From Nonomuraea rubra (GTDB lineage Bacteria > Actinomycetota > Actinomycetes > Streptosporangiales > Streptosporangiaceae), in contig NZ_JACHMI010000001.1 of the NCBI RefSeq assembly GCF_014207985.1, positions 1,471,001 to 1,535,000 on the forward strand: DNA of 64,000 nt. The letters run 5' to 3'. Below are positions 14,533-34,691 of this stretch, piece by piece. Each line of letters starts with the position of its first letter. The first letter of the stretch is position 1. Under the pieces are notes generated by a model. It was not told where the DNA came from and did no database searches. It saw nothing but the letters and a program-made list of their open reading frames with translations. Made by a program: the position numbers and the translations under genes.

Positions 14533-15276
14533 ATGACCTGGACAGAGCTCGTGATGGCGGCGGCACCGACGCAGGGCGAGCAGCCGGCGGTGAGCGATGT
14601 CAGGACCGGAGAGGTGCTGTCCTACGCCTCCTTCGCCAGACGGGTCACCCGCGCCGCCGCGGGGCTGCGCGCCCAGGGCCTGCGGTACGGCGACCACGTG
14701 CTCGTCAACGTCCCCCTCGGCGCCACCATGCCCGTGGCCGTCCACGCCGTCGCCTGGGCCGGCGGGGTTTCGGTGCTCTCGGCCACCGGCAGCGCCCGCC
14801 TGATGATCGCCCAGGACCACTACGACCCCGCCGCCGTGAAGGTGGACCAGGTCTTCGCCTTCCGGCCCACGCCGGGGGCCAGGTCGTTCACCGAGCTGCT
14901 GACCGCCGGCGCGGTCGAGTTCGGACCGCTGGCCGGGCCCGCGCTCACGCTCGACGGCGCGCGCGTGTTCGACAACACCGAGCTGGCGGCCGACCTGCGC
15001 AGGATCGCCACCCGGCTGGTGGTCGGCAAGGACGACGTGGTGATCAGCGCGGTGAGCGAGCCGTTCAGGGGGCTGCGGGTGATCGATTTGGCGATGACGG
15101 CCGGCGCCCACGTCGTGGTCGCCCACGAGCCGAGCCTGGTCGGCTGCCGCGTGCTGGCCCAGGAGCGGCGGGCCACCATGGTCGTGGCGCCGTACGACCT
15201 GGCCAGGAGGCTGCTCGGGGATCCCATCCTGCGTGTCGTCGATGAAAGGGCGGTCGTGAGCTCGCTTGGCCTGTGA
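14533..15276 (+). CDS. Truncated acyl-adenylate-enzyme-like protein (ANL N-terminal part), copy 1
   Basis: 247 aa resembling only the N-terminal half of AMP-binding (acyl-CoA synthetase/NRPS adenylation) enzymes: an entry segment LSYASFARRVTRAAAGLRAQ, then GDHVLVNVPLGATMPVAVHA and AGGVSVLSATGSARLM. The ATP-binding A3 loop (T/S-G-T-T-G-x-P-K), the A5-A8 motifs and the catalytic lysine are absent, so it cannot be an ordinary adenylating enzyme. Start ATG 14533 with leaderless geometry. It lies 52 bp before an NB-ARC/LuxR giant regulator on the same strand; two more such pairs occur in the window. Either a decayed gene fragment or a ligand-binding partner; the repetition favours function. Confidence 0.75.
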   Translation: MTWTELVMAAAPTQGEQPAVSDVRTGEVLSYASFARRVTRAAAGLRAQGLRYGDHVLVNVPLGATMPVAVHAVAWAGGVSVLSATGSARLMIAQDHYDPAAVKVDQVFAFRPTPGARSFTELLTAGAVEFGPLAGPALTLDGARVFDNTELAADLRRIATRLVVGKDDVVISAVSEPFRGLRVIDLAMTAGAHVVVAHEPSLVGCRVLAQERRATMVVAPYDLARRLLGDPILRVVDERAVVSSLGL

Positions 15277-15328
15277 AAAGTGCGACACTGTGGGAGAGTG
15301 TGATCCTTCCGCGACGCAGGGTGAGCAC

Positions 15329-17743
15329 ATGCCAAATACCCCCCGGCACAACCTTCCGGCAGAGCCCAACCGGTTCGTCGGACGCGAGCGCGACCTCGAT
15401 GACCTGCACGACCTGTTCGGCGAGACGCGGGTGGTGACGCTGTGCGGGGTCGGCGGCATCGGCAAGACGCGGCTGGCCCTCCAGGTGGCGGCCGGGCTGG
15501 TGCCGTCGTTCCCCGACGGCGTGTGGCTGGTGGAGCTGGCCAGGCTCGGCCGGCCCGAGCTCGTCGAGCAGGAGGTGGCCGGCGTGCTCGGCGTGCGCGA
15601 GGAGGCCGGCAGGCCGCTGCTCGACACCATGACGGCCCGGCTGCGCGACCAGCGCTGCCTGCTGCTGCTGGACAACTGCGAACACCTGGTCGACAGGTGC
15701 GCCGAGGTGGCCGCCGCGCTGGTGGCGGCGTGCCCGTCGCTGCGCGTCCTGGCCACCAGCAGGGAGCCGCTGCGCATCGCCAGCGAGCTGATCTGGCGGG
15801 TGCCGCCGCTCGACCTGCCCGACAGGGTCACGGCCGACGCCGAGTCCGTGCAGCTCTTCATGGACCGCGCGGCGGCCGCGGGCACCCGGCTGGGGCCGGA
15901 GAGCCTGCCCGACGTGGTACGGCTGTGCCGGGCGCTCGACGGCCTGCCGCTGGCGCTGGAGCTGGCGGCGGCCCGTACGAGCCTGCTGAGCCCCGGCCAG
16001 ATCGCCGACCGCATCGACGACCGGTTCTCGCTGCTGACGACCGGCGGCCGTACGGCTCCGCCCCGCCAGCGCACGCTGCTGGCGGCCGTCGAGTGGAGCT
16101 ACGACCTGCTCTCGGCCAAGGAGCAGGTGCTGCTGCGGCGGCTGTCGGTGTTCGCCGGTGATTTCGACCTCGAACTGGCCGAGCAGGTCTGCGCCGAGCG
16201 GCCCATCCCCGGAGGGGAGATCGTCGATCTGCTCGGCGGGCTGGTGGACAAGTCGCTCGTGCTGTGCGACGAGAGCCGCAGGCGCTACTGGCTGCTGGAG
16301 ACGATCAAGCGTTACGCCCTCGAACGCCTCGAACAGGCCGGCGAGCGCGAGGTCCTGCGCGAGCGGCACCTCGACGTGCTGTGCGAGCTGCAGGAGCGCC
16401 ACTTCACGACCGAGATGGTACGGCCGGACGCGCCGTGGCAGGCGCGGCTGGAGGCGCTGACCGCCAGCCGCGACCTCATCGACGACCAGCGGGTGGCGCT
16501 CGACTGGGCGGTCGAGTCCGGCAACGTGGCGGCGGGCCTGCGCCTGTGCAGGACCAGCACGGGGCTGCTGCCCCTGGCCGGGAACGTGCTGGAGATCGTC
16601 GGCCGGCTGGAGCGGCTGCTCTCGCTCGATCCGGCCGGGGTGCCCGAGGGCCAGCTCGCGCACGCCAGGGCGTACCTCGCCTACGGGCTGGAGGCGCGCG
16701 ACGAGCTGAGCCGGGCACTGGAGGTGGCGGAGGAGAGCCTGTCCAGGATGTCGCGCGAGGACGTGTTCCCGCGCTGCGTCATGCACAGCCTCGTCGTCAC
16801 CGTGCTGCTGCGGATGGGGCGCGCCGACGACGCGGTGCACCACGCCGAGGAGGGCCTGGCCCTGGCCGCCCGCACCGGTGACACCTGGAACCAGGCGGCG
16901 GGCCTGCTCGGCCTGTCGGCGGTGGCGCTCGTACGCGGCAGGCTGCGCGAGGCGCAGCGGCACGGCGAGGAGGCGCTGGCGCGGGCGCGCGAGCACGGCC
17001 ACCGCTGGCTGATGGCCAGGACGGCGGTCCAGCTCGGCTCGGTGGCCGAGGCCCGCGGCGACCTGATGACCGCCAGGACCCTGTACGAGATGGCCGTGCC
17101 CTGGCTGAGCGAGCTGGGCAGCGACCCCGAGCTGACCCGGTGCCTGGCCAGGATCGGCAGGGTGGCGGCGATGCTGCACGAGTTCGGCGCCGCCCGCGAG
17201 CAGCTGGCGGCCAGCCTGGAGCTGGCGCGGGCCACCGGCCAGCGGCAGGGCATCGCCCGCTGCCTGGTGGGGCTGTCGGTGCTGGCCGAGTGCCAGGGCG
17301 ACCTGGAGGGCGCGGTGCTGGCGGCGGCCGCGGCTGCGGGGCTGCGCGAGTCGATCGGCCAGCATTCGGCCACGACCAGGTTCGAGGAGCTGCTCGGCCG
17401 GGCCCGCACCAAGCTGGGCGAGGGCCGGACCACCTCGCTGTGGTCGCGCGGCCGGACGATGAGCTCCGACGACGCCGCCCGCCACGTCCTGGAGGGCGAA
17501 CGGTTCACGCCGCGGGCCCCGGTCGCGGCAGAGCCGGTCAAGCACTCGCTGCTGACCTCGCGCGAGCTGGAGATCGCCGGGCTGCTCACGCGCGGGCTGT
17601 CCAACCGGGCCATCGCCGAGGAGCTGGTGATCAGCCCCGCGACGGTCGCCCGCCACATCGCCAACATCATGGAGAAGCTCGGCTACACGTCCCGGGCGCA
17701 GATCGCGGTGTGGGCCACCGAGCGTCAGAAGGGCGCCCCGTAG
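15329..17743 (+). CDS. NB-ARC/TPR/LuxR-type giant transcriptional regulator, copy 1
   Basis: 804 aa. After the family opener LPAEPNRFVGRERDLDDL come an AP-ATPase/NB-ARC module with Walker A CGVGGIGKTR (39-48), Walker B LLLLDN (111-116), ATSREPL and GLPLALELAAAR; a winged-helix region (LLRRLSVFAGDFDLELAEQV); TPR-like helices (about 400-680); and a C-terminal GerE/LuxR HTH (LTSRELEIAGLLTRGLSNRA, about 742-804). Such STAND-type regulators couple ligand-triggered ATPase switching to transcription. ATG 15329 is preceded by AGGGTGAG. It follows the AMP-like gene 14533-15276 and is closely similar to the regulator at 18289, indicating tandem duplication. Confidence 0.9.
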   Translation: MPNTPRHNLPAEPNRFVGRERDLDDLHDLFGETRVVTLCGVGGIGKTRLALQVAAGLVPSFPDGVWLVELARLGRPELVEQEVAGVLGVREEAGRPLLDTMTARLRDQRCLLLLDNCEHLVDRCAEVAAALVAACPSLRVLATSREPLRIASELIWRVPPLDLPDRVTADAESVQLFMDRAAAAGTRLGPESLPDVVRLCRALDGLPLALELAAARTSLLSPGQIADRIDDRFSLLTTGGRTAPPRQRTLLAAVEWSYDLLSAKEQVLLRRLSVFAGDFDLELAEQVCAERPIPGGEIVDLLGGLVDKSLVLCDESRRRYWLLETIKRYALERLEQAGEREVLRERHLDVLCELQERHFTTEMVRPDAPWQARLEALTASRDLIDDQRVALDWAVESGNVAAGLRLCRTSTGLLPLAGNVLEIVGRLERLLSLDPAGVPEGQLAHARAYLAYGLEARDELSRALEVAEESLSRMSREDVFPRCVMHSLVVTVLLRMGRADDAVHHAEEGLALAARTGDTWNQAAGLLGLSAVALVRGRLREAQRHGEEALARAREHGHRWLMARTAVQLGSVAEARGDLMTARTLYEMAVPWLSELGSDPELTRCLARIGRVAAMLHEFGAAREQLAASLELARATGQRQGIARCLVGLSVLAECQGDLEGAVLAAAAAAGLRESIGQHSATTRFEELLGRARTKLGEGRTTSLWSRGRTMSSDDAARHVLEGERFTPRAPVAAEPVKHSLLTSRELEIAGLLTRGLSNRAIAEELVISPATVARHIANIMEKLGYTSRAQIAVWATERQKGAP

Positions 17744-17756
17744 CCGCGCCGAGTTC

Positions 17757-17812
17757 TGCATAGGGATCTGCATATTCCGCCCCATGTGTGCACGAGATGC
17801 CCTCCCTACGGT
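17757..17812 (+). promoter_or_regulatory. Promoter region of the second AMP-like gene
   Basis: TGCATAGGGATCTGCATATT begins 63 bp upstream of the ATG at 17820 and aligns with the element at 14471. TACGGT (17807-17812) ends seven bases before the ATG, so the mRNA is probably leaderless. Confidence 0.5.
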
Positions 17813-17819
17813 GGGCCCC

Positions 17820-18200
17820 ATGGATGAGCGCATCGTGATGGTGGACTCGGGCACGGGCCTGAAGCTCACCGAGGAGCAGCTGGACGAGAGGTCCGCGGTC
17901 GCGACCGTCCAGTTGCGACGCAGGGGAGTGCGCGCTGGAGACACCGTGCTCATCTGCCTGCCCGTCGGGCCCGACCTGCTGGTGTCGGCCAACGCGGTGA
18001 TCGCGGCGGGCGGCGTCGTCTGGCCGCTGCCGCCCGATCTCGACACCACCACGCTGCGCGACCGCATCCAGGAGAGCGGCGCCCGCGTGATGATCTCCAA
18101 CGTCCGCCAGGCGCTCGACGCGGCCGACGAGTCCCGCGTGCGGATCATCATGAGCGTCGCAGACCTGAGCGCCTCACATTCGTATCCGACCGGTTGCTGA
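17820..18200 (+). CDS. Truncated acyl-adenylate-enzyme-like protein, copy 2 (shortest)
   Basis: 126 aa equivalent to only the first subdomain of an AMP-binding enzyme: VQLRRRGVRAGDTVLICLPV, then GPDLLVSANAVIAAGGVVWP and the downstream SGARVMISNVRQALDA. No ATP-binding or catalytic motif is present. ATG 17820 is chosen for its promoter geometry. It lies between the two tandem NB-ARC/LuxR regulators on the same strand and directly precedes the second one, repeating the order seen at 14533-17743. Confidence 0.7.
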   Translation: MDERIVMVDSGTGLKLTEEQLDERSAVATVQLRRRGVRAGDTVLICLPVGPDLLVSANAVIAAGGVVWPLPPDLDTTTLRDRIQESGARVMISNVRQALDAADESRVRIIMSVADLSASHSYPTGC

Positions 18201-18288
18201 CTCTGCACGCAAAGTGATCGCACAGGGCCCCGGTGAGGGGAAGACTTAGCTCGTAGGAGTGCCTCCCACGACCACCCTTGGCCTCGAC

Positions 18289-20712
18289 ATGACCGTGCGA
18301 ACCCCCCACAATCTCCCCGTAGAGCCCAACCGCTTCATCGGCCGCGAACGCGACGTGTGCGAGCTGAGCGAGCTGGTCCGCGAGGAACGCGTGATCACGC
18401 TGTGCGGGGTGGGCGGCATCGGCAAGACCCGGCTGTCGTTACGCGTGGCGGCGCGGGCGCGGCCCCGGTTCGCCGACGGCGTGTGGCTGGTCGAGCTGGC
18501 CCGCGTCGGTGATCCCGCGCTGGTGGCCGGCGAGCTGGCGGGCGTGCTCGGGGTCCGCGACGAGCTCCCCGGGCGGCTGCTCGACGGCCTGCGCGTGCGG
18601 CTGCGCGACGCCAGCACGCTGATCCTGCTCGACAACTGCGAGCACCTGGTCGAGTGCTGCGCGGAGCTGGTGGCCGGGCTCGTCGCCGAGTGCCGCGGCC
18701 TGCGGTTCCTGCTCACCAGCCGGGAGCCGCTGCACATCCAGGAGGAGCTGGTCTGGCGGGTGCCGCCGCTGGAGCTGCCCGACGAGGAGCATCCCGACGC
18801 CGAGTCGGTGCTGCTGTTCGTGGAGCGGGCGCTGGCGGCCGGGGCGCGCGGGGTGACGGAGCACCTGCCCGACGTCGTACGGCTGTGCCGGGCGCTCGAC
18901 GGCCTGCCGCTGGCGCTGGAGCTGGCGGCGGCTCGTACGAGCCTGCTGAGCCCCGGCCGCATCGCCGACCGCATCGGCGACCGGTTCACGCTGCTCACCA
19001 CCGGCCACCGTACGGCGCCTGCCCGGCAGCGCACGCTGCTGGCGGCCGTCGACTGGAGCCACGACCTGCTCAGGCCCAAGGAGCGGGTGCTGCTGCGGCG
19101 GCTGTCGGTGTTCGCGGGGCTGTTCGACCTGGGGCTGGCCGAGCGGGTGTGCGCCGACGGCGGGATCGTGCGCAGGGCCGAGCTGCTCGACCTGCTCGGC
19201 GGCCTGGTGGACAAGTCGCTGGTGCTGCACCAGGGCGGCTCGGGGCGGTACCACCTGCTGGAGACCATCCGCCAGTACGCCGCCGACCGGCTGGCGGAGG
19301 TGGGCGAGGTCGCCCGGCTGCGCGACCGGCACCTGCGGGTGATCTGCGAGGAGATGGAGCGCTGCTACGAGGGCGGCTCGCTGGAGCCGCGGATGCCGTG
19401 GCCGGCCCGGTTCGCGCACTTCACCCGGGGGCGCGCGCTGCTCGACGACTGCAGGATCGCGATCGACTGGGCGGTGGAGTCGCGCCAGGCGGTCGTGGGG
19501 CTGCGGCTGGCGCGGGCGGCGCTGGCGATCCTGGCCGTCCGCGGCGACCTGGGCGAGAGCATCGGCTGGCACCAGCGGCTGCTCGCGCTGAACCTGGCCG
19601 ACGTGCCCGACGACGTCGTCGCGGTGGCCGCGGGCGCGCTGGCGTACGGGCTGGAGCAGGCCGATGAGCTGGTACGCGCCGAGGAGCTGATCGTGCAGGG
19701 GGTGGAGGAGCAGAAGCGGCACCCGTACACGCACTGGCTGGGCATCACGTACGGCGTGGCGCTGACCGTGTTCTTCCGTACGGGACAGACCGGGCGGGCG
19801 CTGCGTTACCTGGAGGAGCTGGAGGCGGCGGCGACCGCCCACGACGACCTGTTCAACCTGGCCACGGTCCGGATCGCCCAGCTCAACCTGGCGCTGTTCC
19901 AGGGCCGGCTCCGTCAGGCCCAGCGGTACGGCGAGCAGGCGCTCGCGCTCGGCAGGGAGGCGGGTCACCACTGGACCCAGGCCAGGGCGCTGACCCATCT
20001 CGGCGCGGTGGCCGAGGCGGCGGGCGACCTGGAGACGGCCATGTCGTGCCACGCCGGCGCGCTGCCGCTGCTGGAGGGCATGGACAACCGGGTCGAGCTG
20101 GCGCGCTGCCACGCCCAGCTCGGCCGGGTCGCGGCGGGGCTGGGCGATCACGTCGCCGCCAAGAAGCACGTGGCCGCGGGGCTGGAGCTGAGCAGGAAGG
20201 CGGGGCAGCGCAGGGGCATCGTACGGGCGCTGTCGGCCCTGTCGGCGCTGGCGCAGGCGCAGGGGGACCTGGAAGGCGCGGTGCTGGCCGGGGCGGCCGC
20301 CACGGCGCTGCGCGAGTCGATCGGGCAGTACGGCACGCCGGGGCGGCTGCAGGAGCTGCTGGCGGTGGCCCGCGACGGGCTCGGCGAGGGGCGAGTGGCC
20401 CTGCTGTGGGCCAGGGGCATGGAGTGGCCGCCCGACGAGGTGGCCAGGCGGGTGCTCGGCGGCGCGGCCGGGCAGGAGGCGCTGCCCGCCCGGCCGCGCC
20501 CGCGGTGCGCCGGGCTGACGCCGAGGGAGCGGGAGATCGCGGCGATGCTCACCAGGGGGATGAGCAACCGGGCGATTGCCGAGGAGCTGGTGATCAGCTC
20601 GGCCACCGTGGCCCGGCACATCGCCAACATCATGGACAAGCTGGGCTTCGACGCCCGCTCGCAGATCGCGGTGTGGGCGGCCGAGCGCGGGATCGACGCG
20701 CAGCGCACCTGA
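18289..20712 (+). CDS. NB-ARC/TPR/LuxR-type giant transcriptional regulator, copy 2
   Basis: 807 aa from ATG 18289; an in-frame GTG at 18259 is an alternative, since TTAGCT (18246-18251) ends seven bases before it. Same plan as copy 1: opener LPVEPNRFIGRERDVCEL, Walker A CGVGGIGKTR, Walker B LILLDNCEHL, SREPL, GLPLALELAAAR, winged helix, TPR region, and C-terminal LuxR HTH (LTPREREIAAMLTRGMSNRA). An 82-bp stretch at 18877-18958 is identical to 15917-15998 but for one base. It forms a tandem pair with copy 1, with the short AMP-like gene between them. Confidence 0.9.
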   Translation: MTVRTPHNLPVEPNRFIGRERDVCELSELVREERVITLCGVGGIGKTRLSLRVAARARPRFADGVWLVELARVGDPALVAGELAGVLGVRDELPGRLLDGLRVRLRDASTLILLDNCEHLVECCAELVAGLVAECRGLRFLLTSREPLHIQEELVWRVPPLELPDEEHPDAESVLLFVERALAAGARGVTEHLPDVVRLCRALDGLPLALELAAARTSLLSPGRIADRIGDRFTLLTTGHRTAPARQRTLLAAVDWSHDLLRPKERVLLRRLSVFAGLFDLGLAERVCADGGIVRRAELLDLLGGLVDKSLVLHQGGSGRYHLLETIRQYAADRLAEVGEVARLRDRHLRVICEEMERCYEGGSLEPRMPWPARFAHFTRGRALLDDCRIAIDWAVESRQAVVGLRLARAALAILAVRGDLGESIGWHQRLLALNLADVPDDVVAVAAGALAYGLEQADELVRAEELIVQGVEEQKRHPYTHWLGITYGVALTVFFRTGQTGRALRYLEELEAAATAHDDLFNLATVRIAQLNLALFQGRLRQAQRYGEQALALGREAGHHWTQARALTHLGAVAEAAGDLETAMSCHAGALPLLEGMDNRVELARCHAQLGRVAAGLGDHVAAKKHVAAGLELSRKAGQRRGIVRALSALSALAQAQGDLEGAVLAGAAATALRESIGQYGTPGRLQELLAVARDGLGEGRVALLWARGMEWPPDEVARRVLGGAAGQEALPARPRPRCAGLTPREREIAAMLTRGMSNRAIAEELVISSATVARHIANIMDKLGFDARSQIAVWAAERGIDAQRT

Positions 20713-20764
20713 GTGCGGGCGGCCGGGCGCGAGATCGGCGTGCGGCGGACATAACCTCGTGTCC

Positions 20765-21529
20765 ATGCCTCTCGCGCCCAGCTTTCCCGTCATGCTCAGG
20801 ACCGAGGACGGGGTCCGCATCGACGCCGCGCACACCCCCTCAGCCCGCACCGGCGTGGGCACCGGTGTGGGCATCGTGGTGGCGCACGGCTTCACCGGGT
20901 CGTGGCGGGATCGTGCCGCGCGCCGCATCGTGCACGTGCTGAGCGGGTACGGCGGGGTGATCGCGTTCGACTTCCGCGGGCACGGCAGGTCCGGCGGCGA
21001 GACCACGGTGGGCGACCTGGAGATCCTCGACGTGCAGGCCGCGGTGAGGCACGCCCGCGTGGTCGGCTACTCCAGGATCGCGGTCGTCGGCTTCTCCATG
21101 GGCGCGGCGGTGGCCGTTCGGCACGCCGGGCTGCGCGGCGGGGTGGACGCGGTGGTCGCGGTGAGCGGTCCGGCCCGCTGGTACTACCGGGGGACCAAGC
21201 CGATGCGGCAGGTGCACTGGGCCATCGAGCAGCCGTTCGGGCGGTGGGCGGCGCGGGTGGCCAAGCGGACGCGGATCGCGCGGGGGAAGTGGGACCCGAT
21301 CCCGATGCCGCCGCACGAGGCCGCCGGGCTCGTCTCGCCCGCGCCGCTGCTGATCGTGCACGGGGACGCGGACGCGTTCTTCCCGCTGGATCACGCTCGG
21401 CAACTCTACGACGGAGCCAACGAGCCGAAGGAGCTCTGGATCGAGCCCGGATTCGGGCACGCGGAGGCCGCGGCGACCCCCGAACTCGTCCGCCGGATCG
21501 GCAAATGGATCTCCTCGAACTTTTCCTGA
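20765..21529 (+). CDS. Alpha/beta hydrolase
   Basis: 254 aa soluble alpha/beta-hydrolase-fold protein. Oxyanion segment VVAHGFTGSW, RGHGRSGG, nucleophile elbow GFSMGAA (Ser), acid-containing LLIVHGDADAFFP and the late His in PGFGHAEAA complete the triad. Substrate unknown; small-ester hydrolase or lysophospholipase-like. ATG 20765 is seven bases after TAACCT (20752-20757), consistent with a leaderless mRNA. It ends just before the structured RNA region at 21544. Confidence 0.9.
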   Translation: MPLAPSFPVMLRTEDGVRIDAAHTPSARTGVGTGVGIVVAHGFTGSWRDRAARRIVHVLSGYGGVIAFDFRGHGRSGGETTVGDLEILDVQAAVRHARVVGYSRIAVVGFSMGAAVAVRHAGLRGGVDAVVAVSGPARWYYRGTKPMRQVHWAIEQPFGRWAARVAKRTRIARGKWDPIPMPPHEAAGLVSPAPLLIVHGDADAFFPLDHARQLYDGANEPKELWIEPGFGHAEAAATPELVRRIGKWISSNFS

Positions 21530-21543
21530 GTAAAACACGTCTA

Positions 21544-21712
21544 CCTAGGGCGGATGGAAGGAAACCGCCGGGAGAAAGTCCCTGGGGAAGGAAACCGCCG
21601 ATGCGGTGGACGTGGGACATACTGCTGTAGTCGGGCGGTAGCCCAGCGTCGCGGGGGCGCGCTGGGTGACCATCCGCGAAGGGCCCCGCCGGGGATGGCG
21701 GGGCCCTTTCTC
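21544..21712 (+). ncRNA. Candidate structured non-coding RNA
   Basis: Between two convergent genes the top strand folds into a closed multi-branch structure. Closing stem GCGGATGG (21550-21557) pairs with CCATCCGC (21670-21677). Inside are GGGA-GAAAG-TCCC (21570-21582), ACCGC-CGAT-GCGGT (21594-21607) and CCCAGCG (21642-21648) with CGCTGGG (21660-21666). A 15-base direct repeat GGAAGGAAACCGCCG occurs at 21556 and 21586. A GC-rich hairpin with a T-run follows. TAAAAC at 21531 could be a -10. I do not recognise a known riboswitch or housekeeping RNA. Confidence 0.5.
21681..21710 (+). terminator. Rho-independent terminator
   Basis: Perfect 10-bp stem GGGCCCCGCC / GGCGGGGCCC with loop GGGGAT, followed by TTTCTCGTT. 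The T-run is on the top strand, so it ends the RNA candidate or hydrolase transcript; the stem lies also just past the convergent aldehyde dehydrogenase stop. Confidence 0.75.
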
Positions 21713-21723
21713 GTTCTGCGCCT

Positions 21724-23157
21724 TCAGCCGAGGCGGGAGATCGTCTTGTACTCCAGGTAGGAGTTGAGGCCCTCGGGGCCCAGCTCGCGGCCGACGCCGC
21801 TGGCCTTGTAGCCGCCGAAGGGCGCGTTGGTCTCCAGCATGAAGCAGTTCACGCCGTACGTGCCCGTGCGGACCTGGCGGGCCACCTCCATGCCGTGCTC
21901 GGTGTCGGCCGTCCAGACCGTGCCGGCCAGGCCGTAGTCGCTGTCGTTGGCGATGCGTACGGCGTCGGCCTCGTCCTCGTACGGGATCACGGCCAGGACG
22001 GGGCCGAAGATCTCCTCGCGGGCGATGCGCATGTCGTTGCTGACGCCCGAGAACACGGTGGGCGCGACGTACCAGCCCCTGTCGTACGGCCGGTCGAGCC
22101 CGCCCACCACGATCTTGGCGCCCTCGTCCATGCCGAGCTTGATGTAGCCCTCCACCCGCTCCTGCTGCCGCTTGGCCACCAGCGGGCCGATGCCGGTCGT
22201 GGCGTCGGCGGGGTCGCCGACGGCCTGGGAGCTCACCATGCCCGCGATCGCGTCCACGACCTCGTCGTAGCGGTTGCGGGAGGCCAGGATGCGGGTCTGC
22301 GCGACGCACGCCTGGCCGTTGTTCATGAGGGAGGCCATCGACAGGAAGCCCATGCTGGCGGCCAGGTCGGCGTCGTCCAGGATGATCGCGGCCGACTTGC
22401 CGCCCAGCTCCAGGCTGACCCGCTTGAGCTGCTCGCCGCAGACGGCGGCGATGCGCCGGCCGGCGGCGGTGGACCCGGTGAAGGCCACCTTGTCCACACC
22501 CTTGTGCGAGACCAGGTGCTCGCCGACCTCGCGGCCTGCGACGACGATGTTGAGCACGCCCGCGGGCACGCCGGCCTCGGCCGCCCACTCGGCCAGCAGG
22601 TACGCGTCCAGCGGCGTCTCGGGAGCCGGCTTGAGCACGATCGTGCAGCCCGCCAGCAGCGCGGGCGCGACCTTGGTCATGGTCACGAACTGGGGCACGT
22701 TCCACGGCACCACGGCCGCGACCACGCCCACCGGCTCCCGGCGCACGGTGATCGGGCCGAACAGCCCCGGCCGCTGCTCCTCCTGCTGGAACGTCTTGCC
22801 GAGCTCGGCGTAGTACTGCAGCATGCCGAGCGGCTGCGGCGCCTGCGCGAGGTTGGAGAACGTGATCGGGGAGCCCATCTCCTCGGTGATGAGCTGGGCC
22901 ATCTCGCCCTGCCGCTCGTTGTAGACGGCGGCCAGCCGGCCGATCACCTCGGCCCGCTCGGCGAACGTCATCCGCGGCCACGGCCCGTGGTCGAAGGCCT
23001 CCCTGGCGGCGGCGACCGCGCGCTCCATGTCCTCGGCGGTGCCGTCGGGCACGCGGCCGACGATCTCCTCGGTGTGGGGGGAGATGACGTCTATCGTCCC
23101 GGTGCCCGCTGGGGCCACCCATTCGCCCCCGATGAACAGCTTGTCGTGCTGGCGCAT
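21724..23157 (-). CDS. Aldehyde dehydrogenase (NAD(P)-dependent)
   Basis: 477 aa, the normal ALDH length. PWNVPQF and LKPAPETPL mark the cofactor site, FTGSTAAGRRI the Rossmann region, Glu250 in LELGGKS is the general base and Cys284 in NNGQACVAQT the nucleophile; EEIFGPVL is also present. It oxidises an aldehyde to the acid; substrate cannot be read from sequence. ATG 23157 is preceded by AGGAGG at eight bases. No pathway partner is adjacent. Confidence 0.94.
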   Translation of the reverse strand: MRQHDKLFIGGEWVAPAGTGTIDVISPHTEEIVGRVPDGTAEDMERAVAAAREAFDHGPWPRMTFAERAEVIGRLAAVYNERQGEMAQLITEEMGSPITFSNLAQAPQPLGMLQYYAELGKTFQQEEQRPGLFGPITVRREPVGVVAAVVPWNVPQFVTMTKVAPALLAGCTIVLKPAPETPLDAYLLAEWAAEAGVPAGVLNIVVAGREVGEHLVSHKGVDKVAFTGSTAAGRRIAAVCGEQLKRVSLELGGKSAAIILDDADLAASMGFLSMASLMNNGQACVAQTRILASRNRYDEVVDAIAGMVSSQAVGDPADATTGIGPLVAKRQQERVEGYIKLGMDEGAKIVVGGLDRPYDRGWYVAPTVFSGVSNDMRIAREEIFGPVLAVIPYEDEADAVRIANDSDYGLAGTVWTADTEHGMEVARQVRTGTYGVNCFMLETNAPFGGYKASGVGRELGPEGLNSYLEYKTISRLG

Positions 23158-23364
23158 GTCGTGAGCCTCCTGCTTGACCGAATGCTTGCTTGTCTTCGGC
23201 ATGTCCCAAGGCGACCGAATCATGTTCTGTCCGCCCACGCAAGAGTCCTCGCGCCCGTCGCGGCGGCCCGGAACGGACGGCGCCGTGCAGCCGGGCCGAC
23301 TGTCTCCCTGATTCCGGACAAACTGCTACAAATTTCGCCAAAGGTGCAGCAGTTCGGTCGTTCG

Positions 23365-26331: not shown

Positions 26332-26338
26332 CCCTCGC

Positions 26339-27262: not shown

Positions 27263-27269
27263 GGCGCAG

Positions 27270-27336
27270 ACTCTGGAACCTGGAGCGCACTCCATGTCAA
27301 ACCGGTTGACCTGGAGTGGACTCCAGGTGAGATTCT
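27270..27336. promoter_or_regulatory. Mirrored MerR-type divergent promoters with two palindromic operators
   Basis: Rightward: TTGACC (27306-27311), 19-bp spacer, GATTCT (27331-27336), seven bases to GTG 27344. Its spacer holds the perfect palindrome ACCTGGAGTGGACTCCAGGT. Leftward: TTGACA (27295-27300 on the minus strand), 19-bp spacer, CAGAGT, seven bases to ATG 27262, with the related sequence ACCTGGAGCGCACTCCATGT. The over-long 19-bp spacers bearing a dyad are the hallmark of MerR-activated promoters. Confidence 0.85.
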
Positions 27337-27343
27337 GGGACAC

Positions 27344-27703
27344 GTGAGCGTGTACACACCCGCGGAAGTCGTCGAGGAGACCGGGTTCACCATCGACACC
27401 CTCCGCTACTACGAGAAGATCGGCCTGCTGGAGCGCGTCGACCGCAACGCGGCCGGGCAGCGCCGGTTCAGCCAGGAGGACGTCGGCTGGCTGGGCATGG
27501 TCCGCTGCCTGCGCGACACCGGCATGCCCATCGCCACGATGTTGCGCTTCGCCGAGCTCGTACGCGCGGGCGACCACACGATCCCCGACCGCATCGAGCT
27601 CCTGGAAGAGCACGACCGGCAGGTCCAGGCCCAGATCGCGAACCTCGCCGAGCGCCAGAGCTACATCCACCACAAGATTTCCTACTACCGCAGCCTCATG
27701 TAG
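27344..27703 (+). CDS. MerR-family transcriptional regulator
   Basis: 119 aa. Winged HTH of the MerR class (YTPAEVVEETGFTIDTLRYY, EKIGLLERVDRNAAGQRRFS), then the dimerisation helix (RIELLEEHDRQVQAQIANLA) ending HHKISYYRSL. There are no effector cysteines for a metal sensor, so a small organic ligand is more likely. GTG 27344 is set by the promoter and is probably the first transcribed base. Regulates itself and the divergent aldo/keto reductase (inference from the operators). Confidence 0.92.
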   Translation: MSVYTPAEVVEETGFTIDTLRYYEKIGLLERVDRNAAGQRRFSQEDVGWLGMVRCLRDTGMPIATMLRFAELVRAGDHTIPDRIELLEEHDRQVQAQIANLAERQSYIHHKISYYRSLM

Positions 27704-27739
27704 CCCTGCCTTTGCGGCCCGGTTGCTACACCTCGATCC

Positions 27740-29218
27740 ATGGCCGGATCGAGAGGGGGGTGGCTCGACGTCCCGCTGAGCCGCGTCGCCCGACTGTGCG
27801 CCGCGATGCTGTTCGTGCTGCTCGCGCACGTCACGCTCATCCAGGCGTTCGGCTCGCACGCGCTCAACGCCGACCGCAGGAACGAGCGCACGCTGATCGA
27901 CAGGTACGGCCGCCCGCGCGGCGACATCCTCACCTACGACGGCACCCCCATCGCCACCAGCCTGCCCATCGGCGGCCCGTACCGGTACCGGCGCGCCTAC
28001 CCCCGGGGCGAGGAGTACGCGGCCGTCACCGGGCACGTGTCGCTGCACCGCACGACCGGCATCGAACAGGCGCAGGACGCGGTGCTGTCCGGCGACGACG
28101 CCAAGGTCAGGGTCAGGTCGCTGGTCGGGGACGGGACCGTCGAAGGGGCCGACCTCCGGCTGACCATCCGTGACCGGGTGCAGCGGGCGGCGTACCAGGG
28201 GCTGCGGGCGGCGGGCCTTCCGGGAGCGGTGGTGGCGCTCGACCCCGCGACCGGGGCGGTCCTGGGGCTGGCCACGTACCCGACGTACGATCCGAACACG
28301 CTGACCACCTTCGACGGGAAGCTGCTGGCCGACACCGCCCGGCGGTTGCGGCAGACGCCCTCGCAGCCCCTGCTCAACCGGGCGCTGAACCAGCTCTATC
28401 CGCCCGGATCCACGTTCAAGCTCGTCACCGCGGCGGCGGCGATCGCGTCCGGCGAGTACACGCCGACGGGCGCGGTGCACGCGCCCGCCCGGCTGCGGCT
28501 GCCAGGGGCGCCGGCGTACCTGGAGACCGGGCGGTGCGGGAACGGGCGGCCGACGCTCGCGTACGCGTTCCAGGCGTCCTGCGACACCGCCTTCGCCGCC
28601 ATCGGGCTGCAGCTCGGGCAGGACCTGCTGCGGGAGCAGGCGGAGGCGTTCGGGTTCAACGCCGGGCAGTTGCGGATCCCGCTGCTCGCGACGCCCAGCC
28701 GGTATCCGCCGGTCGAGGACAGGACGCAGATGGCGCTGGCGGCCATCGGGCACCACGACAACCGGGTGACGCCGCTGATGGTGGCCATGTTGTCGGCGGC
28801 CGTGGCGAACAACGGGGTGCTGATGCGGCCTTACCTGGTGGAGGAGGCGCGGCTGCCGGACGGGGCGGTGATCAACCGGGCCTCGCCCGTGCCGTACCGG
28901 ACGGCTGTGCCGCCCATGCTGGCGCGGTACCTGGCGGCCATGATGACGGCCGTCTCCCCTGATCGGGGGAAGGGGGCGGAGGCTCCTGGGTTGTCCAAGG
29001 CGCCCGGGGTCTCCGACGTGACGGGGGTGCCAGGGGTGCGGATGGCGGCCAAGACGGCCGCGTCGGACGGGGTGCCGGGGGAGCACGCCGTGATCACGGC
29101 CTTCGCGCCGGCGGAGGCGCCCGAGGTGGCTGTGGGGGTGGTGCTGGAACGGCCGGGGGATCGGGTGGACGCCGTGGCCACCATCGCCCGCGCCGTCATC
29201 GCGGCCGCCCTGAGGTGA
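27740..29218 (+). CDS. Class B penicillin-binding protein, PbpA/FtsI-like, with atypical KTG motif
   Basis: 492 aa. One N-terminal membrane anchor (RVARLCAAMLFVLLAHVTLI), a short dimerisation region, then a transpeptidase domain. SxxK is Ser224-Thr-Phe-Lys227 (PPGSTFKLV); the second motif is SCD (280-282) instead of SxN; the third is KTA (438-440, in MAAKTAASDG) instead of KTG. A Pro/Gly-rich insert (411-433) precedes it. Should cross-link peptidoglycan if active. TACACC ends seven bases before ATG 27740 (leaderless). No cell-division genes adjoin. Confidence 0.88.
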   Translation: MAGSRGGWLDVPLSRVARLCAAMLFVLLAHVTLIQAFGSHALNADRRNERTLIDRYGRPRGDILTYDGTPIATSLPIGGPYRYRRAYPRGEEYAAVTGHVSLHRTTGIEQAQDAVLSGDDAKVRVRSLVGDGTVEGADLRLTIRDRVQRAAYQGLRAAGLPGAVVALDPATGAVLGLATYPTYDPNTLTTFDGKLLADTARRLRQTPSQPLLNRALNQLYPPGSTFKLVTAAAAIASGEYTPTGAVHAPARLRLPGAPAYLETGRCGNGRPTLAYAFQASCDTAFAAIGLQLGQDLLREQAEAFGFNAGQLRIPLLATPSRYPPVEDRTQMALAAIGHHDNRVTPLMVAMLSAAVANNGVLMRPYLVEEARLPDGAVINRASPVPYRTAVPPMLARYLAAMMTAVSPDRGKGAEAPGLSKAPGVSDVTGVPGVRMAAKTAASDGVPGEHAVITAFAPAEAPEVAVGVVLERPGDRVDAVATIARAVIAAALR

Positions 29219-29227
29219 GCCGGGCTC

Positions 29228-29243
29228 GGGACGGCGCCGTCCC
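29228..29243. terminator. Possible bidirectional terminator
   Basis: A perfect 16-bp palindrome GGGACGGCGCCGTCCC lies in the 35-bp gap between two convergent stops. It lacks a T-run on the top strand, so termination is an inference from position. Confidence 0.4.
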
Positions 29244-29253
29244 CCCGCCCGGT

Positions 29254-31116
29254 TCAGCGGTAGGCGGTGGCCTGGAGGGTGTAGAGGTCGGCGTAGAGGC
29301 CGTCGAGGGACATGAGGGTGTCGTGGTCGCCCTGTTCGGTGATGGTGCCGTGGTCGAGGACGTAGATGCGGTCGGCGTAGCGGACGCTGGCCAGGCGGTG
29401 GGTGATGAGCAGGACGGTGCGGCCGTCGGCGTGGTGGCGGATGCGTTCGAAGAGGGCGTGTTCGGCGCGGGCGTCGAGGGCGGCGGTGGGTTCGTCGCAG
29501 ATGAGCAGGTCGGCGTCGCGGTGGAAGCCGCGGGCGACGGCGATGCGCTGCCATTGGCCGCCGGACAGTTCGTGGCCGTCCTTGAAGCGGCGGTCGAGCA
29601 GGGTGCGGTAGCCGTGCGGGAGGGCGGCGATGACCTCGTCGGCGCCGGCGACCGCGGCGGCGGCGTGCAGGGCGGGTTCGCCCTTGCCGGTGCCCATGGT
29701 GATGTTGTAGCGGGCGGTCAGCGGCCAGCGGGTGTGGTCCTGGGCGATGACGGCGGTGCGGGAGCGGAGGGCTTCGGGGCTGACCTGGCGCAGGTCGGTG
29801 TCGTCCCAGTGGACGGTGCCGGTGTCGGGTTCGTACAGGCCGGACAGGATCTTGGCCAGGGTGGTCTTGCCGGAGCCGTTCTCGCCGACGAACGCGATCA
29901 CCTCGCCCTGCTTGATCTCGATCGAGACGCCCCGCAGAGCGGGGGCGGGAGCGCCGGGGTAGGTGAAGGTGACGCCGGTGGCGGTGATGCGTTCGAAGCT
30001 CTCCGGGATGGGGGAGTGGCGGGGCCCGGGGATGCGGCCTTCGGCGTCGGCGCAGAAGTCGAGGAAGTCGGTGAAGTAGAGGCCCTCCTCGTAGAGGCGG
30101 TTGGTGGCGTACATGAGCCGGCCGAGCGATCCCTGGGCCGAGCGGATGGCCAGGACGGCGGTGCCGGCCACGGCCAGCGGGATGGCGGCGACGGCGAGCA
30201 GGACGCCGAGCGCGACGTAGACGAGTGCGGCGCCGAGGCCGCCCAGGGCCTCGCCGGCCAGGCGGGCCATGGTCTGGCGGCGGGCCAGGCGCAGCATGAC
30301 GTCCTGCTCGGCCTTGGCCACCGCGTCGTACATGCGCAGCAGGAAGCCGCGCATGGTGAACGCGCGGACCTCGGCCGCGGGCTCCCGTTCGGCCAGGAGC
30401 TGGCCGATGATCCACTTGCGGCGGTTGGCGGGGATGAGGGAGTACATGGTGGCGTACTGCATGCGGGCGCTGCGGACGGCGGCCCACGCGTCGGGCAGGA
30501 CGGCCAGGAGGAGGAGCGGCAGGAGGACGGGGTGCAGGACGCCGAGCACGCCCGCGACGGCGGCGATGCCGACGGCGGCGGTGACCACGTCGATGGTGCA
30601 GGTGACCACCGAGTCGGCCATGGCCGCCCCGCGCAGCCTGGCGCGTTGCAGGGCGTCGTGGAAGTCGGGGTCGTCGTAGGCCACCAGGTTCACGCGGCTG
30701 GTCAGGCCGTACAGGCGCTCCTCGGTGAGGCGGGTGACCTGCGGGTCGAGGCGTGACTGGGCCCAGCCCGCGCCGGCCTGCGTGGTCGTGCGCAGCACGG
30801 CCGCCCCGGCGACCAGGGCGAGGCTGGGCAGGGCGGCCATGACGCGGTCGGGCGTGGGGCCCTCGCTGAACAGGGCGGTCAGCACGCCGGTGGTGGCCAG
30901 CAGGCCGAACGCGGTGAAGACGCCGCCGAGCAGGTTGAGCACGATCGTGGCCGCCGTGTCGCGGGGGCTGGCCCGCCAGGCCATCCGCATCGCCTGCCCG
31001 ATGAGGGACGGCAGCTTTCTGGCGATGGTCAGGAAGCCGACCTCCGCCATCTTGTCGGTGTGGGCGTACCACTCGGAGAAGGACATCTCGCCGAGCTCGA
31101 GCGGCTCATCGGCCAT
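29254..31116 (-). CDS. ABC transporter, fused permease and ATP-binding protein
   Basis: 620 aa half-transporter of the exporter type. Residues about 60-330 hold the transmembrane domain (for example LVAGAAVLRTTTQAGAGWAQ); from about 370 the nucleotide-binding domain has Walker A GENGSGKTT, signature ELSGGQWQRIA, Walker B LLICDEP and H-loop LLITHRLA. It resembles HlyB/MsbA-like exporters often tied to antibiotic or peptide export; no substrate gene adjoins. ATG 31116 follows CACACT by six bases. Divergent from the third NB-ARC/LuxR regulator; the two genes share the string CACACTCACA before their starts, suggesting common control. Confidence 0.92.
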   Translation of the reverse strand: MADEPLELGEMSFSEWYAHTDKMAEVGFLTIARKLPSLIGQAMRMAWRASPRDTAATIVLNLLGGVFTAFGLLATTGVLTALFSEGPTPDRVMAALPSLALVAGAAVLRTTTQAGAGWAQSRLDPQVTRLTEERLYGLTSRVNLVAYDDPDFHDALQRARLRGAAMADSVVTCTIDVVTAAVGIAAVAGVLGVLHPVLLPLLLLAVLPDAWAAVRSARMQYATMYSLIPANRRKWIIGQLLAEREPAAEVRAFTMRGFLLRMYDAVAKAEQDVMLRLARRQTMARLAGEALGGLGAALVYVALGVLLAVAAIPLAVAGTAVLAIRSAQGSLGRLMYATNRLYEEGLYFTDFLDFCADAEGRIPGPRHSPIPESFERITATGVTFTYPGAPAPALRGVSIEIKQGEVIAFVGENGSGKTTLAKILSGLYEPDTGTVHWDDTDLRQVSPEALRSRTAVIAQDHTRWPLTARYNITMGTGKGEPALHAAAAVAGADEVIAALPHGYRTLLDRRFKDGHELSGGQWQRIAVARGFHRDADLLICDEPTAALDARAEHALFERIRHHADGRTVLLITHRLASVRYADRIYVLDHGTITEQGDHDTLMSLDGLYADLYTLQATAYR

Positions 31117-31200
31117 GGTGTGAGTGTGCCCACGCGGGGCGGCACTTCTCCATCCAATTAAGTCTGGGCGCGGAGCGTGGTTGGTGACACACTCACAGTG

Positions 31201-33567
31201 ATGCAGCGATTCGCGGACCTCAGCAGCCTCCCGGCGGAGCCGAACCCGTTCGTGGGCCGGGAGGCCGATGTCGACGAGCTCGTCCACCTGATGCGCGTCT
31301 CCCGGGTCGTGACGCTGTGCGGGGCGGGCGGCATCGGGAAGACCCGGCTGGCCCTGCGGCTCGCCGTCAGGCTGGCCTGCGCGGACGCGGGCGGCGTGTG
31401 CCTGAGCGAGCTGGCCGACCTGGAGAAGGGGCAGCTCAGAGCCCACGTCGCGGCCGCGCTCGGCATCTCGGGCGACCTGGTGGAGACGATCGGCGACCGG
31501 CGCGTGCTGCTGCTGCTCGACAACTGCGAGCCGGTCATCGGGGAGTGCGCCGAGCTCTGCCGCGACCTGCTGCGGGCCTGCCCGGGAGTGACGGTGCTGG
31601 CGACCAGCAGGGAGCCGCTGCGGGTGCCGGGCGAGACGCTGTGGCGGGTGCCGCCGCTGTCGGTGGGCGAGCCGGTGGAGGGCGTCGAGAGCGAGGCGGT
31701 GCGGCTGTTCGTGGCCAGGGCCACGGCGGCGCGGCCCGGCTTCGAGCTGACCGGGGAGACGCGGCCGCTGGTGGGGGAGCTGTGCCGGGCGCTCGACGGG
31801 CTGCCGCTGGCGATCGAGCTGGCCGCCGCCATGGTCCGGGTGTTGTCCGTGGGGCAGCTCGTCGAGCGGCTGGACGACCGGTTCAGGCTGCTGGCGGGCG
31901 GCGCCCGCACGGCTCCGGCGCGGCACCGTACGCTCAGGGCGGCGGTGGACTGGAGCTACCGGCTGCTCAGCCCGCAGGAGCGGCTGCTGCTGCGCCGTAC
32001 GGCCGCCTTCCGCTCCTCCTGGACGCTGGACCTGGCCGAATGGGTCTGCGCGGGCCCCGGGCTCGCGGAGGAGGAGGTGCTGCCCCGGCTCTGCGACCTG
32101 GTGGACAAGTCGCTGGTCGTGCTCGACGGCGAGGTGGCGGGGCACGCGCGTTACCGGCTGCTGGAGACCGTCCGCGAGTACGCGCTGGAGCAGCTCGCCG
32201 AGTCCGGCGAGGAGGCCGAGCTGCGCCGCCGCCACCTGACGGCGCTGGCCGGGCTGGCCGCCAGGTTCAAGGAGTCGCTGGCCCCGGGGGTGCGCACGTC
32301 GTGGCCGGTGGTCGAGCGCTACGTCAACCTCTTCGACGGCCTCAAGGCCGAGGTGAACTCCGCCTGCGACTGGTCGATCGCCATCGGCATGCCGGACACC
32401 GCGCTCACCCTGCTGACCGACATCCGCTTCCTGCTGATCGGCAGCGGCCGCAAGCTCGACTCGACCGACCGGCTCGACCGGCTGCTCGCCCTCGACGCCC
32501 CCCAGGTGCCGCAGGGGCTGCGCGGGCGGGCCACGATCGTGCGCGGGGAGCTGGCGCTGGCCGCGGGCGACTTCGAGCCGGCGCTGCGGCACGTACGCGC
32601 CGGGCTGGAGCTGTGCTCGGCCGCCGAGGACGTGTACGGCACCGCCCTCGGCACGATCGCGCTGGCCCAGCTCACCGGCGAGCAGTCGGCGATCGACCGG
32701 GCGCTCGGCACGGCCAGGCAGTCGGGCGATCTCGTCCTGGAGTCGCTGGCCCAGGCCACGAGGGCACGCTACGGCCTGCACCAGGGCCGCCTGCACGAGG
32801 CGCAGCGCGCCTACCAGGAGGTGCTGTCGATCAGCGAGGAGCTCGACAACCACTACGGCCAGACCTTCGGCCACATCGGCCTGGCGCAGGTGGCCAGGCG
32901 CTCGGGCGACCTCGGCACCGCCAGGCGGCACTACGAGTCGGGGCTGAGCCTGCTCAAGCACGTGGACGCCAGGCAGCAGATCGTGAGCTGCCTGGCAGGG
33001 CTCGGCCGGGTGGCGCTGGACGAGGGCGACCTGGCCGAGGCCAGGGTCAGGCTGACCGAGGCGCTGGTGCTCAGCCGCGACGCGGGCCTGCGGGCCGGCA
33101 TCGCCCGCCGGCTGGACGCGTGGGCCGCGCTGGTCACGGCCGAGGGCGACCACCGGCGCGCGGTCCTGCTGGTGGCGGCGGCGGTGACGCTGGGCGGGCG
33201 GCAGCCGGACGCCCGCACCGAGGACGTGCTGCGCCCGGCCCGCGAGAGCCTCGGCGAGGCCGTCGCCGGCGTGTTGTGGGCGGAGGGCACCCGGTTCACC
33301 GCCGACCAGGCCGTGGCCTGCGCGCTCGAAGGTGACCTGCCCCAGGCGCCGGTCGTGCCGGTCGCGCCGGTCCGCCAGGACAGCAGGCTCACGGCCAGGG
33401 AGCAGGAGATCGCCGAGCTGGTCGCCAGGGGGCTCAGCAACCGGGGGATCGCCGACGAGCTCGTCATCAGCCCGGCGACCGTGGCCAGGCACGTGGCCAA
33501 CATCCTGGCGAAGCTGGGGTTCGCCACGCGTACACAGATCGCCGCATGGGTGATCGGCAGTCGCTGA
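31201..33567 (+). CDS. NB-ARC/TPR/LuxR-type giant transcriptional regulator, copy 3
   Basis: 788 aa. Opener LPAEPNPFVGREADVDEL, Walker A CGAGGIGKTR, Walker B LLLLDNCEPV, ATSREPL, GLPLAIELAAAM, winged helix (LLRRTAAFRSSWTLDLAEWV), TPR region, and C-terminal LuxR HTH (LTAREQEIAELVARGLSNRG). More diverged from copies 1 and 2 than they are from each other. ATG 31201 with CACACT seven bases upstream; GTG 31198 is adjacent in frame. An AMP-like fragment follows 350 bp downstream, so the pair recurs in reversed order. Divergent from the ABC exporter. Confidence 0.9.
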   Translation: MQRFADLSSLPAEPNPFVGREADVDELVHLMRVSRVVTLCGAGGIGKTRLALRLAVRLACADAGGVCLSELADLEKGQLRAHVAAALGISGDLVETIGDRRVLLLLDNCEPVIGECAELCRDLLRACPGVTVLATSREPLRVPGETLWRVPPLSVGEPVEGVESEAVRLFVARATAARPGFELTGETRPLVGELCRALDGLPLAIELAAAMVRVLSVGQLVERLDDRFRLLAGGARTAPARHRTLRAAVDWSYRLLSPQERLLLRRTAAFRSSWTLDLAEWVCAGPGLAEEEVLPRLCDLVDKSLVVLDGEVAGHARYRLLETVREYALEQLAESGEEAELRRRHLTALAGLAARFKESLAPGVRTSWPVVERYVNLFDGLKAEVNSACDWSIAIGMPDTALTLLTDIRFLLIGSGRKLDSTDRLDRLLALDAPQVPQGLRGRATIVRGELALAAGDFEPALRHVRAGLELCSAAEDVYGTALGTIALAQLTGEQSAIDRALGTARQSGDLVLESLAQATRARYGLHQGRLHEAQRAYQEVLSISEELDNHYGQTFGHIGLAQVARRSGDLGTARRHYESGLSLLKHVDARQQIVSCLAGLGRVALDEGDLAEARVRLTEALVLSRDAGLRAGIARRLDAWAALVTAEGDHRRAVLLVAAAVTLGGRQPDARTEDVLRPARESLGEAVAGVLWAEGTRFTADQAVACALEGDLPQAPVVPVAPVRQDSRLTAREQEIAELVARGLSNRGIADELVISPATVARHVANILAKLGFATRTQIAAWVIGSR

Positions 33568-33904
33568 GCGTTTCTACACATCGCGCGTACATCGTCGAAT
33601 GGCCATGTCAGCGCATGTGCGGGAGCCGTGTGCACGCCTAACGTTCGTTACGTGATCGACCGCACCGCGCGTTCCTCGCCCCTCGCGACGGGGGCGCCAC
33701 GGCCGATCGGTCGGGGACGTCACGCGTCCGCATGGGGCTGGGCCTTCTCGGAGGGGTGGGGGTCCTGCTCCGGACGTGTGACAGCGGGCTCGAGTCGCGC
33801 AGGGCTCGGGCCCGCCCACCTCGCGAAGGGAGTGCACGGCACCGGCCGGGGAATGCACAGCGGCCTACATACATCGGTGGATGCTCCGGCAGCCCCGGCA
33901 GCCG
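33568..33904. other. Intergenic region without a supported gene
   Basis: 337 bp between the third regulator and the third AMP-like gene. A short frame at 33628-33921 has an unconvincing composition and no family resemblance. TGCACA and TACATA near 33854-33871 recall elements found before the other two AMP-like genes, and TACGTT at 33905-33910 is the probable -10. No hairpin with T-run was seen. Confidence 0.5.
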
Positions 33905-33917
33905 TACGTTGGCGGGC

Positions 33918-34691
33918 ATGAGACCCACCGCCTCGACCACCGGCACCGTGATCCATGAAGTGTTCCGCCGGGCCTACGAGCGCGGTGACCGTCCCGCCCT
34001 CATCGACCTGCGCGGTGGCCACGTCTACGGCTATCGCCGGCTGGTGACCGAGGTGACCAGGGCGGCTTCCGGGCTCGTGCGCAGGGGCGCCCGGCGTGAC
34101 CAGGTGGTGGGCGTCCACGTGTCCACGGTGGGCGCCCAGACGCTGGCCGTGCACACGGTGCTGGCCGCGGGCGGGGTGGCGGCGCCGGTCGATCGGGGGC
34201 TGGGCGCGTACGAGATGGCGGCGTGGCTGCGGGAGTGCGACGCGCGGGTCCTGATCACCACGCCGGATCTGGCGGAGACGGCGACCCTGGCGGCGGAGGA
34301 GTCGCGGGTGCGCCAGGTCGTGTCGCTGGGGCCGGCGCTCGACACGATCGACTTCCGCTGCCTGCTCTCGCTGGAGCCCACCGCGCTGCCCGCGCTCGAC
34401 GCCAAGCGCCAGCTCGCCGTGCTGCTCGCCGACGGCGCCCGCCTGTCCCACGCGGACCTGATGGCCAGGATGGCGGCGCTCGACCTCCCGGTACGCCTGG
34501 CCGAGACGGACGTGGTGCTGACCACGTGGCTGCCGGACGGCGGCTGCGGCCTGCTCGCTCTGGTCGGGCTCGGCGTGTCGAAGGGCGCGCTGGTGGTGGC
34601 CGCGGACGGCGCCGATCTCGCCGGCACCGCCCACGACTTCGGCGTCACGGTCGTGACGGGCGCCGACGGCACGCTGGAGCGCGTCGGCTGA
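33918..34691 (+). CDS. Truncated acyl-adenylate-enzyme-like protein, copy 3, with lost A3 loop
   Basis: 257 aa, the longest of the three fragments. N-terminal ANL subdomains are recognisable (YGYRRLVTEVTRAASGLVRR, VVGVHVSTVGAQTLAVHTVL, ECDARVLITTPDLAETA). Where the A3 motif TSGTTGxPKGV should stand, the sequence reads AVLLADGARLSHADLMA: the H-x-x-L tail of A3 survives but the P-loop itself is deleted. Motifs A5-A10 are missing. ATG 33918 has TACGTT seven bases upstream. Adenylation activity is unlikely; substrate binding without catalysis is possible. Confidence 0.75.
   Translation: MRPTASTTGTVIHEVFRRAYERGDRPALIDLRGGHVYGYRRLVTEVTRAASGLVRRGARRDQVVGVHVSTVGAQTLAVHTVLAAGGVAAPVDRGLGAYEMAAWLRECDARVLITTPDLAETATLAAEESRVRQVVSLGPALDTIDFRCLLSLEPTALPALDAKRQLAVLLADGARLSHADLMARMAALDLPVRLAETDVVLTTWLPDGGCGLLALVGLGVSKGALVVAADGADLAGTAHDFGVTVVTGADGTLERVG

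Follow-up and report, generated by a model that had tools for sequence, protein, structure and literature searches.

The mechanisms that keep bacterial STAND (NLR-like) regulators off and turn them on have been worked out in depth for only a few examples. The closest described system is MalT of Escherichia coli, a STAND-LuxR protein that MalY and Aes keep inactive by binding to it directly, and that MalK also keeps inactive; MalY obstructs a face through which MalT oligomerises and reinforces the ADP-bound form (available text of PMC10427625). The regulators described here, R1 to R3, resemble MalT in having an NTPase, a helical-repeat sensor, and a LuxR-type DNA-binding end, and the fragments encoded beside them, F1 to F3, are of enzyme descent, as are the proteins that tune MalT (available text of PMC10427625). 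As in the MalT system, a sugar-type ABC transporter is encoded near R3-F3. However, unlike MalY and Aes, which are a PLP enzyme and an esterase, the partner here would be a truncated ANL pseudo-enzyme whose gene adjoins that of the regulator, and we infer its contact with the regulator from the genes. No report of a fragment-regulator module was found in the literature searched, including a search for its terms in the available part of PMC7159879.

The window, which is the whole stretch of DNA analysed (64,000 nucleotides of Nonomuraea rubra), contains the following genes, all on one strand.

14533..15276, + strand: F1, truncated pseudo-ANL protein, 247 aa
15329..17743, + strand: R1, STAND-TPR-LuxR regulator
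17820..18200, + strand: F2, ANL-domain first lobe, 126 aa
18289..20712, + strand: R2, STAND-TPR-LuxR regulator
31201..33567, + strand: R3, STAND-TPR-LuxR regulator
33918..34691, + strand: F3, truncated pseudo-ANL protein, 257 aa
34782..36134 (solute-binding protein) and 36184..37065 (permease), + strand: sugar-type ABC transporter directly 3' of F3 (Pfam)

The original prediction described three N-terminal fragments of AMP-binding enzymes, each adjoining a STAND-LuxR regulator, and Pfam matches and the open frames of all six genes confirmed this. Its three copies hold as three fragments and three regulators; however, the genes form two clusters, F1-R1-F2-R2 and, approximately 10 kb further on, R3-F3, with R1 flanked by two different half-enzymes (F1 and F2). 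An alpha/beta hydrolase gene (20759-21529, +) lies directly 3' of R2. Since the MalT inhibitor Aes is an esterase, this hydrolase might also be linked to regulation, which is only a thought.

The regulators were called giant; they are approximately 800 aa long. LuxR (GerE) and TPR models scored above the cut-off in all three (TPR_12 in R1 and R2, TPR_MalT in R3). NTPase models did so in R1 only (nSTAND1 and NB-ARC), with sub-threshold matches in R2 and R3, and the Walker A motif was plain in R1, R2, and R3 (GGIGKT in R2 and R3). All three have the MalT-like order of a P-loop NTPase, TPR repeats, and a C-terminal LuxR HTH. However, R2 and R3, the two scanned, are not MalT proper, as they reached 32 and 41 bits against the NCBIfam equivalog cut-off of 537 bits. 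LAL is the label for a type of large actinomycete regulators. R1-R3 share the NTPase-TPR architecture of AfsR and LAL-type regulators, and differ from these in carrying a LuxR, not SARP, DNA-binding domain and in having a linked pseudo-enzyme gene; R2 matched AfsR partially (46 of 1430 bits). R2 is 57% identical to R1 and is optional, being missing from part of Nonomuraea. A STAND query against the host genome gave 19 matches at 1e-20, the top three of which were R1-R3.

Against PF00501 (AMP-binding, 384 positions), F1 matched profile positions 4-75 (E 4.7e-11), F2 positions 10-126 (E 4.9e-16), and F3 positions 2-124 (E 1.1e-19), which is the N-terminal part only. The A3 P-loop pattern was present in 0/98 fragments (window and loci L068-L161), the aligned columns being deleted or degenerate, and the prediction that the fragments are catalytically dead is supported. 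F1 and F3 end ahead of motif A5, F2 comprises the first 120 residues or so only, and the A8 hinge and A10 lysine have gone with the C-terminal half. In contrast to the 4-coumarate-CoA-ligase-like acyl-CoA synthetases of the ANL superfamily, the fragments thus lack the P-loop, A5, A7, A8, A10, and the C-terminal domain. AlphaFold (AF2) nevertheless predicted confident compact folds (pLDDT 93.7 for F3 and 87.3 for F2), and the predicted structures matched the N-terminal part of the ANL fold.

F1, F2, and F3 are related to one another. An F2 query against the host genome (12.88 Mb) gave 13 matches at E<=1e-3, including F1, F2, and F3 themselves. One other match, at approximately 9.02 Mb, was shorter than 500 aa; this frame (L005 922-1866, -) is the start of an ordinary acyl-CoA synthetase with an apparent frame change after approximately 150 codons. 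The STAND query gave no match within 60 kb of it. Since the sole other short F2-query match in the genome has no STAND neighbour, the adjacency of fragments and regulators exceeds chance. Protein searches, which accepted only proteins of 0.55-1.75 times the query length such that full-length relatives could not appear, found intact homologues in relatives: 88 for F2, at least 71 for F3 (best 8000 candidates scored), and at least 81 for F1 (best 7997 candidates scored). Within the accepted range, their lengths were tight around 126 (F2), 257 (F3), and 247 aa (F1). F3 homologues were found as far as Streptosporangium, Sinosporangium, Microtetraspora, and Acrocarpospora. Conserved arginines of F3 include R55, R56, R110, and R132.

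Selection was assessed on codon alignments by the Nei-Gojobori method, with pairs of dS 0.08-1.5 taken as usable (10/1966 pairs lay outside). dN was smaller than dS in all 1956 usable ortholog pairs (F1 594/594, F2 735/735, F3 627/627). Median dN/dS for close pairs was well under 1 for the fragments (F1 0.36, F2 0.40, and F3 0.30) and was 0.36, 0.44, and 0.41 for R1, R2, and R3, respectively; a pooled regulator set mixing R1 with R2 gave 0.62. With the same species compared, fragment dN was 0.9-1.3 times the dN of its own regulator. Neutral dN/dS, the mark of a pseudogene, was not observed in F1, F2, or F3. The fragments are under constraint like that of the regulators and, hence, are not debris. 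Damaged copies comprised four F2 genes with a stop inside the profile span, two cut to a 94-aa frame, and one partial F3 (G006).

The origin of the fragments was examined in a quick maximum-likelihood tree of 80 rows with SH-aLRT supports, no bootstrap, and several unresolved forks; near-duplicate loci were left out of this tree and both regulator trees. All 71 regulator-linked or truncated forms fell into one clade (SH-aLRT 97). Near the base of this clade were eight full-length-type rows; the remaining 63, every one of them truncated, formed a clade of their own (98). F1, F2, and others made up a Nonomuraea-only group of 11 (96), with F3 in the main group. The tree rules out independent origins of F1, F2, and F3, for which their differing lengths had been taken as a sign. 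In the eight full-length rows, the A10 lysine was replaced by arginine in 8/8, the A8 hinge was deleted in 6/8, and the A4 histidine was lost in 6/8 (L079 and L153 are one organism); L099, among these rows, retains the P-loop. Since motifs had already been lost in full-length rows near the base, the pattern fits a stepwise loss. Apparently, a dead full-length 4-coumarate-CoA-ligase-like enzyme, located beside a STAND-LuxR regulator in the ancestor of the window's family, underwent one truncation and was later duplicated in Nonomuraea. The first regulator tree showed the same main groups as the fragment tree. In the second, rooted at its midpoint, fragment-less regulators branched at two or three separate points (L210 uncertain). 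In Actinomadura xylanilytica and its relatives, the regulator is followed by two ANL genes, the first full-length but catalytically damaged and the second truncated (L157 8394-10813, +).

The module was predicted to be recurrent, and the pairing is indeed wider than the window. Among 36 loci around F3-profile matches, hand-picked to span 29 genera (L068-L103), 33 had a STAND-LuxR gene directly upstream of the fragment (same strand, within about 1 kb). The three exceptions were L071, with the regulator on the opposite strand at 2.3 kb, L074, at a contig edge, and L099, the full-length form that has kept its P-loop and has no regulator. In a second set of 54 loci, some from the same organisms, four (L158-L161) were canonical enzymes with no regulator at the locus. 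The 50 non-canonical loci had the regulator directly upstream in 43 cases, at 3.6 kb in one, and on the opposite strand in two; three were without it and one lay at a contig edge. No fragment-regulator fusion was recognised in the fetched loci.

Co-occurrence, which the original prediction offered as a check, was scored in 250 genomes of the window's family with the F3 profile at 1e-20 and the R3 query at 1e-95. Both genes were present in 125 genomes, the fragment only in 5, the regulator only in 21, and neither in 99 (p 1.5e-41, the genomes not being independent). By genus (n=68), the numbers were 35, 3, 6, and 24, respectively (p 9e-10); F3-type matches thus occurred in 38/68 sampled genera. 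On inspection, three of the five fragment-only genomes had a diverged or split regulator adjoining the fragment and G258 had a regulator end on another contig, leaving L099 as the sole remaining case. Nine of the 21 regulator-only genomes were Nonomuraea with F2-type genes; among the other 12, none of the 11 inspected had an adjoining fragment, with the contig ending just downstream in L210 and L211, and L204 had an ANL piece 5 kb off. Fragment-only genomes are few and regulator-only genomes more numerous, which suggests a stronger dependence of the fragment on the regulator than vice versa. In 394 genomes of the class searched at 1e-18, all but three of the matches from outside the window's family had frames of more than 500 aa (the three being 451, 302, and 203 aa, the last cut by a contig edge). 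A fragment-regulator pair was found in one genome from another family of the same order (L199).

With a threshold of 1e-21, an F2 ortholog was found in 49 of 54 Nonomuraea genomes. The order F1-R1-F2 was found in 35 of the 38 loci fetched from these; one of the remaining three was cut at the edge and two were without F1. Another Nonomuraea locus (L104 5734-12751, -) is expanded to regulator, fragment, fragment, regulator, fragment. R3 was present in 8 of the 24 Nonomuraea in the 250-genome sample, always with F3; F3 without R3 was found in two (one partial) and neither in 14. F3 is intact without R3 in L110, L120, and L155, where the flank sequence is continuous (both flanks in L110, the upstream flank in the others). 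The segment 29205-31154, which separates the penicillin-binding-protein gene from R3, is missing from the R3-carrying loci L109 and L115 and present in L110, L120, and L155, which have lost R3; its frame 29215-30756 (+) had no Pfam match. Closer coevolution with the adjacent than with the distal regulator was not seen: in 16 tandem-regulator loci, the correlation of fragment distances was 0.76 for the distal regulator against 0.64 for the adjacent one. Common ancestry accounts for part of the fragment-regulator linkage. F3 kept without R3, and regulators kept without a fragment, argue against an obligate pair.

The regulator pairing is retained across differing gene surroundings. Neighbours vary by genus group and include penicillin-binding protein, MerR, and sugar ABC genes; HisS-like, ATPase-domain, and ParA-like genes; or RibD and deaminase genes. 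A solute-binding gene adjoins the fragment in 11/41 compared loci. The best NCBIfam matches of the ABC genes at 34782-37065 are GlcS/GlcT, far under the cut-off. Conserved noncoding elements accompany F1 and the R3-F3 pair.

14469..14532, + strand: F1 upstream element: TACATA, followed by a GCACAATTGTGC-like palindrome and, close to the ATG, by a TAGATT-like hexamer
33588..33608, + strand: conserved noncoding block 1 of the R3-F3 gap
33740..33823, + strand: two-hairpin RNA element of the R3-F3 gap
33864..33884, + strand: conserved noncoding block 3 of the R3-F3 gap, CCTACATACATCGGTGGATGC

Aligned sequences from upstream of F1 in 34 Nonomuraea had TACATA in 34/34 (by eye), followed by the GCACAATTGTGC-like palindrome, in its strict pattern in 17/34. 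The TAGATT-like hexamer lies so few bases ahead of the ATG that it suggests a leaderless F1 start. Blocks 1 and 3 were conserved in 18 aligned Nonomuraea, and TACATCGNYGRATGS occurs twice in the whole genome, in these two blocks only. This conservation of upstream and intergenic elements argues for expressed, regulated genes. Scans of the R3-F3 gap for promoters and with Rfam gave nothing at threshold, the one Rfam match (E 0.95) being far below the gathering score.

The two-hairpin RNA is a new, undescribed element of approximately 84 nt, with an invariant stretch, CGGAGGGGTGG. Across 28 sequences, six of its pairs carry changes at both partners (35 cells versus 11.4 in shuffles), and the window copy matched the covariance model at 85.6 bits. 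It is present as a single copy in each of 50/250 genomes (9/68 genera), usually between the regulator and the fragment. In Sinosporangium, where the fragment is located elsewhere, it still follows the regulator. Where R3 and F3 have both gone, it is kept before or near ABC genes in G062 and, on the opposite strand, in G028; four genomes of genus g52 (G232, G241, G250, and G263) also have it without a recognised R3 or F3. Possibly, it is a small RNA in its own right.

We propose, with an even chance of being correct, that F1, F2, and F3 are one protein family of shortened, catalytically dead ANL (4-coumarate-CoA-ligase-like) pseudo-enzymes that bind and tune the regulator. The truncation, P-loop loss, confident predicted fold, purifying selection, and lasting regulator linkage are established by the analysis. 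A protein partner is the simplest reading because fragments of enzyme descent, devoid of catalytic motifs, travel with such regulators; the same-strand upstream regulator, its retention in differing surroundings, co-occurrence, constraint, compact folds, motif loss already in full-length relatives next to the regulator, conserved elements, and the MalT precedent all point to it. The fragment would bind the STAND-LuxR regulator as MalY and Aes bind MalT of E. coli and, once bound, may hold the ADP-bound regulator monomer inactive or tune regulator assembly. This hold would end once a signal reaches the TPR sensor, and the sugar-type ABC transporter at 34782-37065 is a plausible target in the R3-F3 cluster. 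We infer this signalling from fragment to regulator, including the binding, its direction, and the signal, from the gene pattern.

Alternatively, the fragment and the regulator may function separately, both genes merely responding to one signal; the fragment could, for instance, pair with another enzyme or bind DNA or RNA. F3 kept without R3 (L110, L120, L155, and G069 of the 250) and the separate conserved elements upstream of F3 and F1 fit this tentative alternative; however, the regulator is the neighbour retained when the surroundings differ, and at least two genomes that lost R3 retain R1 and F1/F2 as possible substitute partners, which leaves it on the unlikely side. The original prediction proposed, as a possibility, that the fragment is a ligand-sensor subunit that binds an acyl, amino, or aryl acid and then signals to the regulator; an adenylate would be another candidate ligand. 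The ANL descent and fold and the regulator linkage agree with such a sensor. However, the ANL acid pocket needs the part that is missing: the fragments have lost the larger share of the pocket for ATP and acid, the consensus P-loop remains in 0/98 fragments, F1 and F3 end before A5, F2 is the first lobe only, and A8 and A10 belonged to the missing part. We consider acid binding to be improbable. Its other suggestion, decaying ligase remnants retained by chance near regulators, draws on the lost catalytic motifs and the damaged copies of F2 and F3 noted above, and is refuted for the protein family by dN<dS in every usable pair; with steady lengths, confident folds, and a spread over more than half of the sampled genera also against it, we give it hardly any probability.

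This natural and widespread pairing of STAND regulators with a small linked pseudo-enzyme suits structural and genetic work. Database entries for AMP-binding proteins with lengths of approximately 126, 247, or 257 aa do not represent broken ligases where a LuxR regulator adjoins. The half-enzymes, as the remains of an ancient line of acid-activating enzymes that lost catalysis, may be, at even chances, a dedicated partner of NLR-like STAND switches in much of one actinobacterial family, multiplied along with these switches in Nonomuraea and accompanied at R3-F3 by an undescribed RNA.
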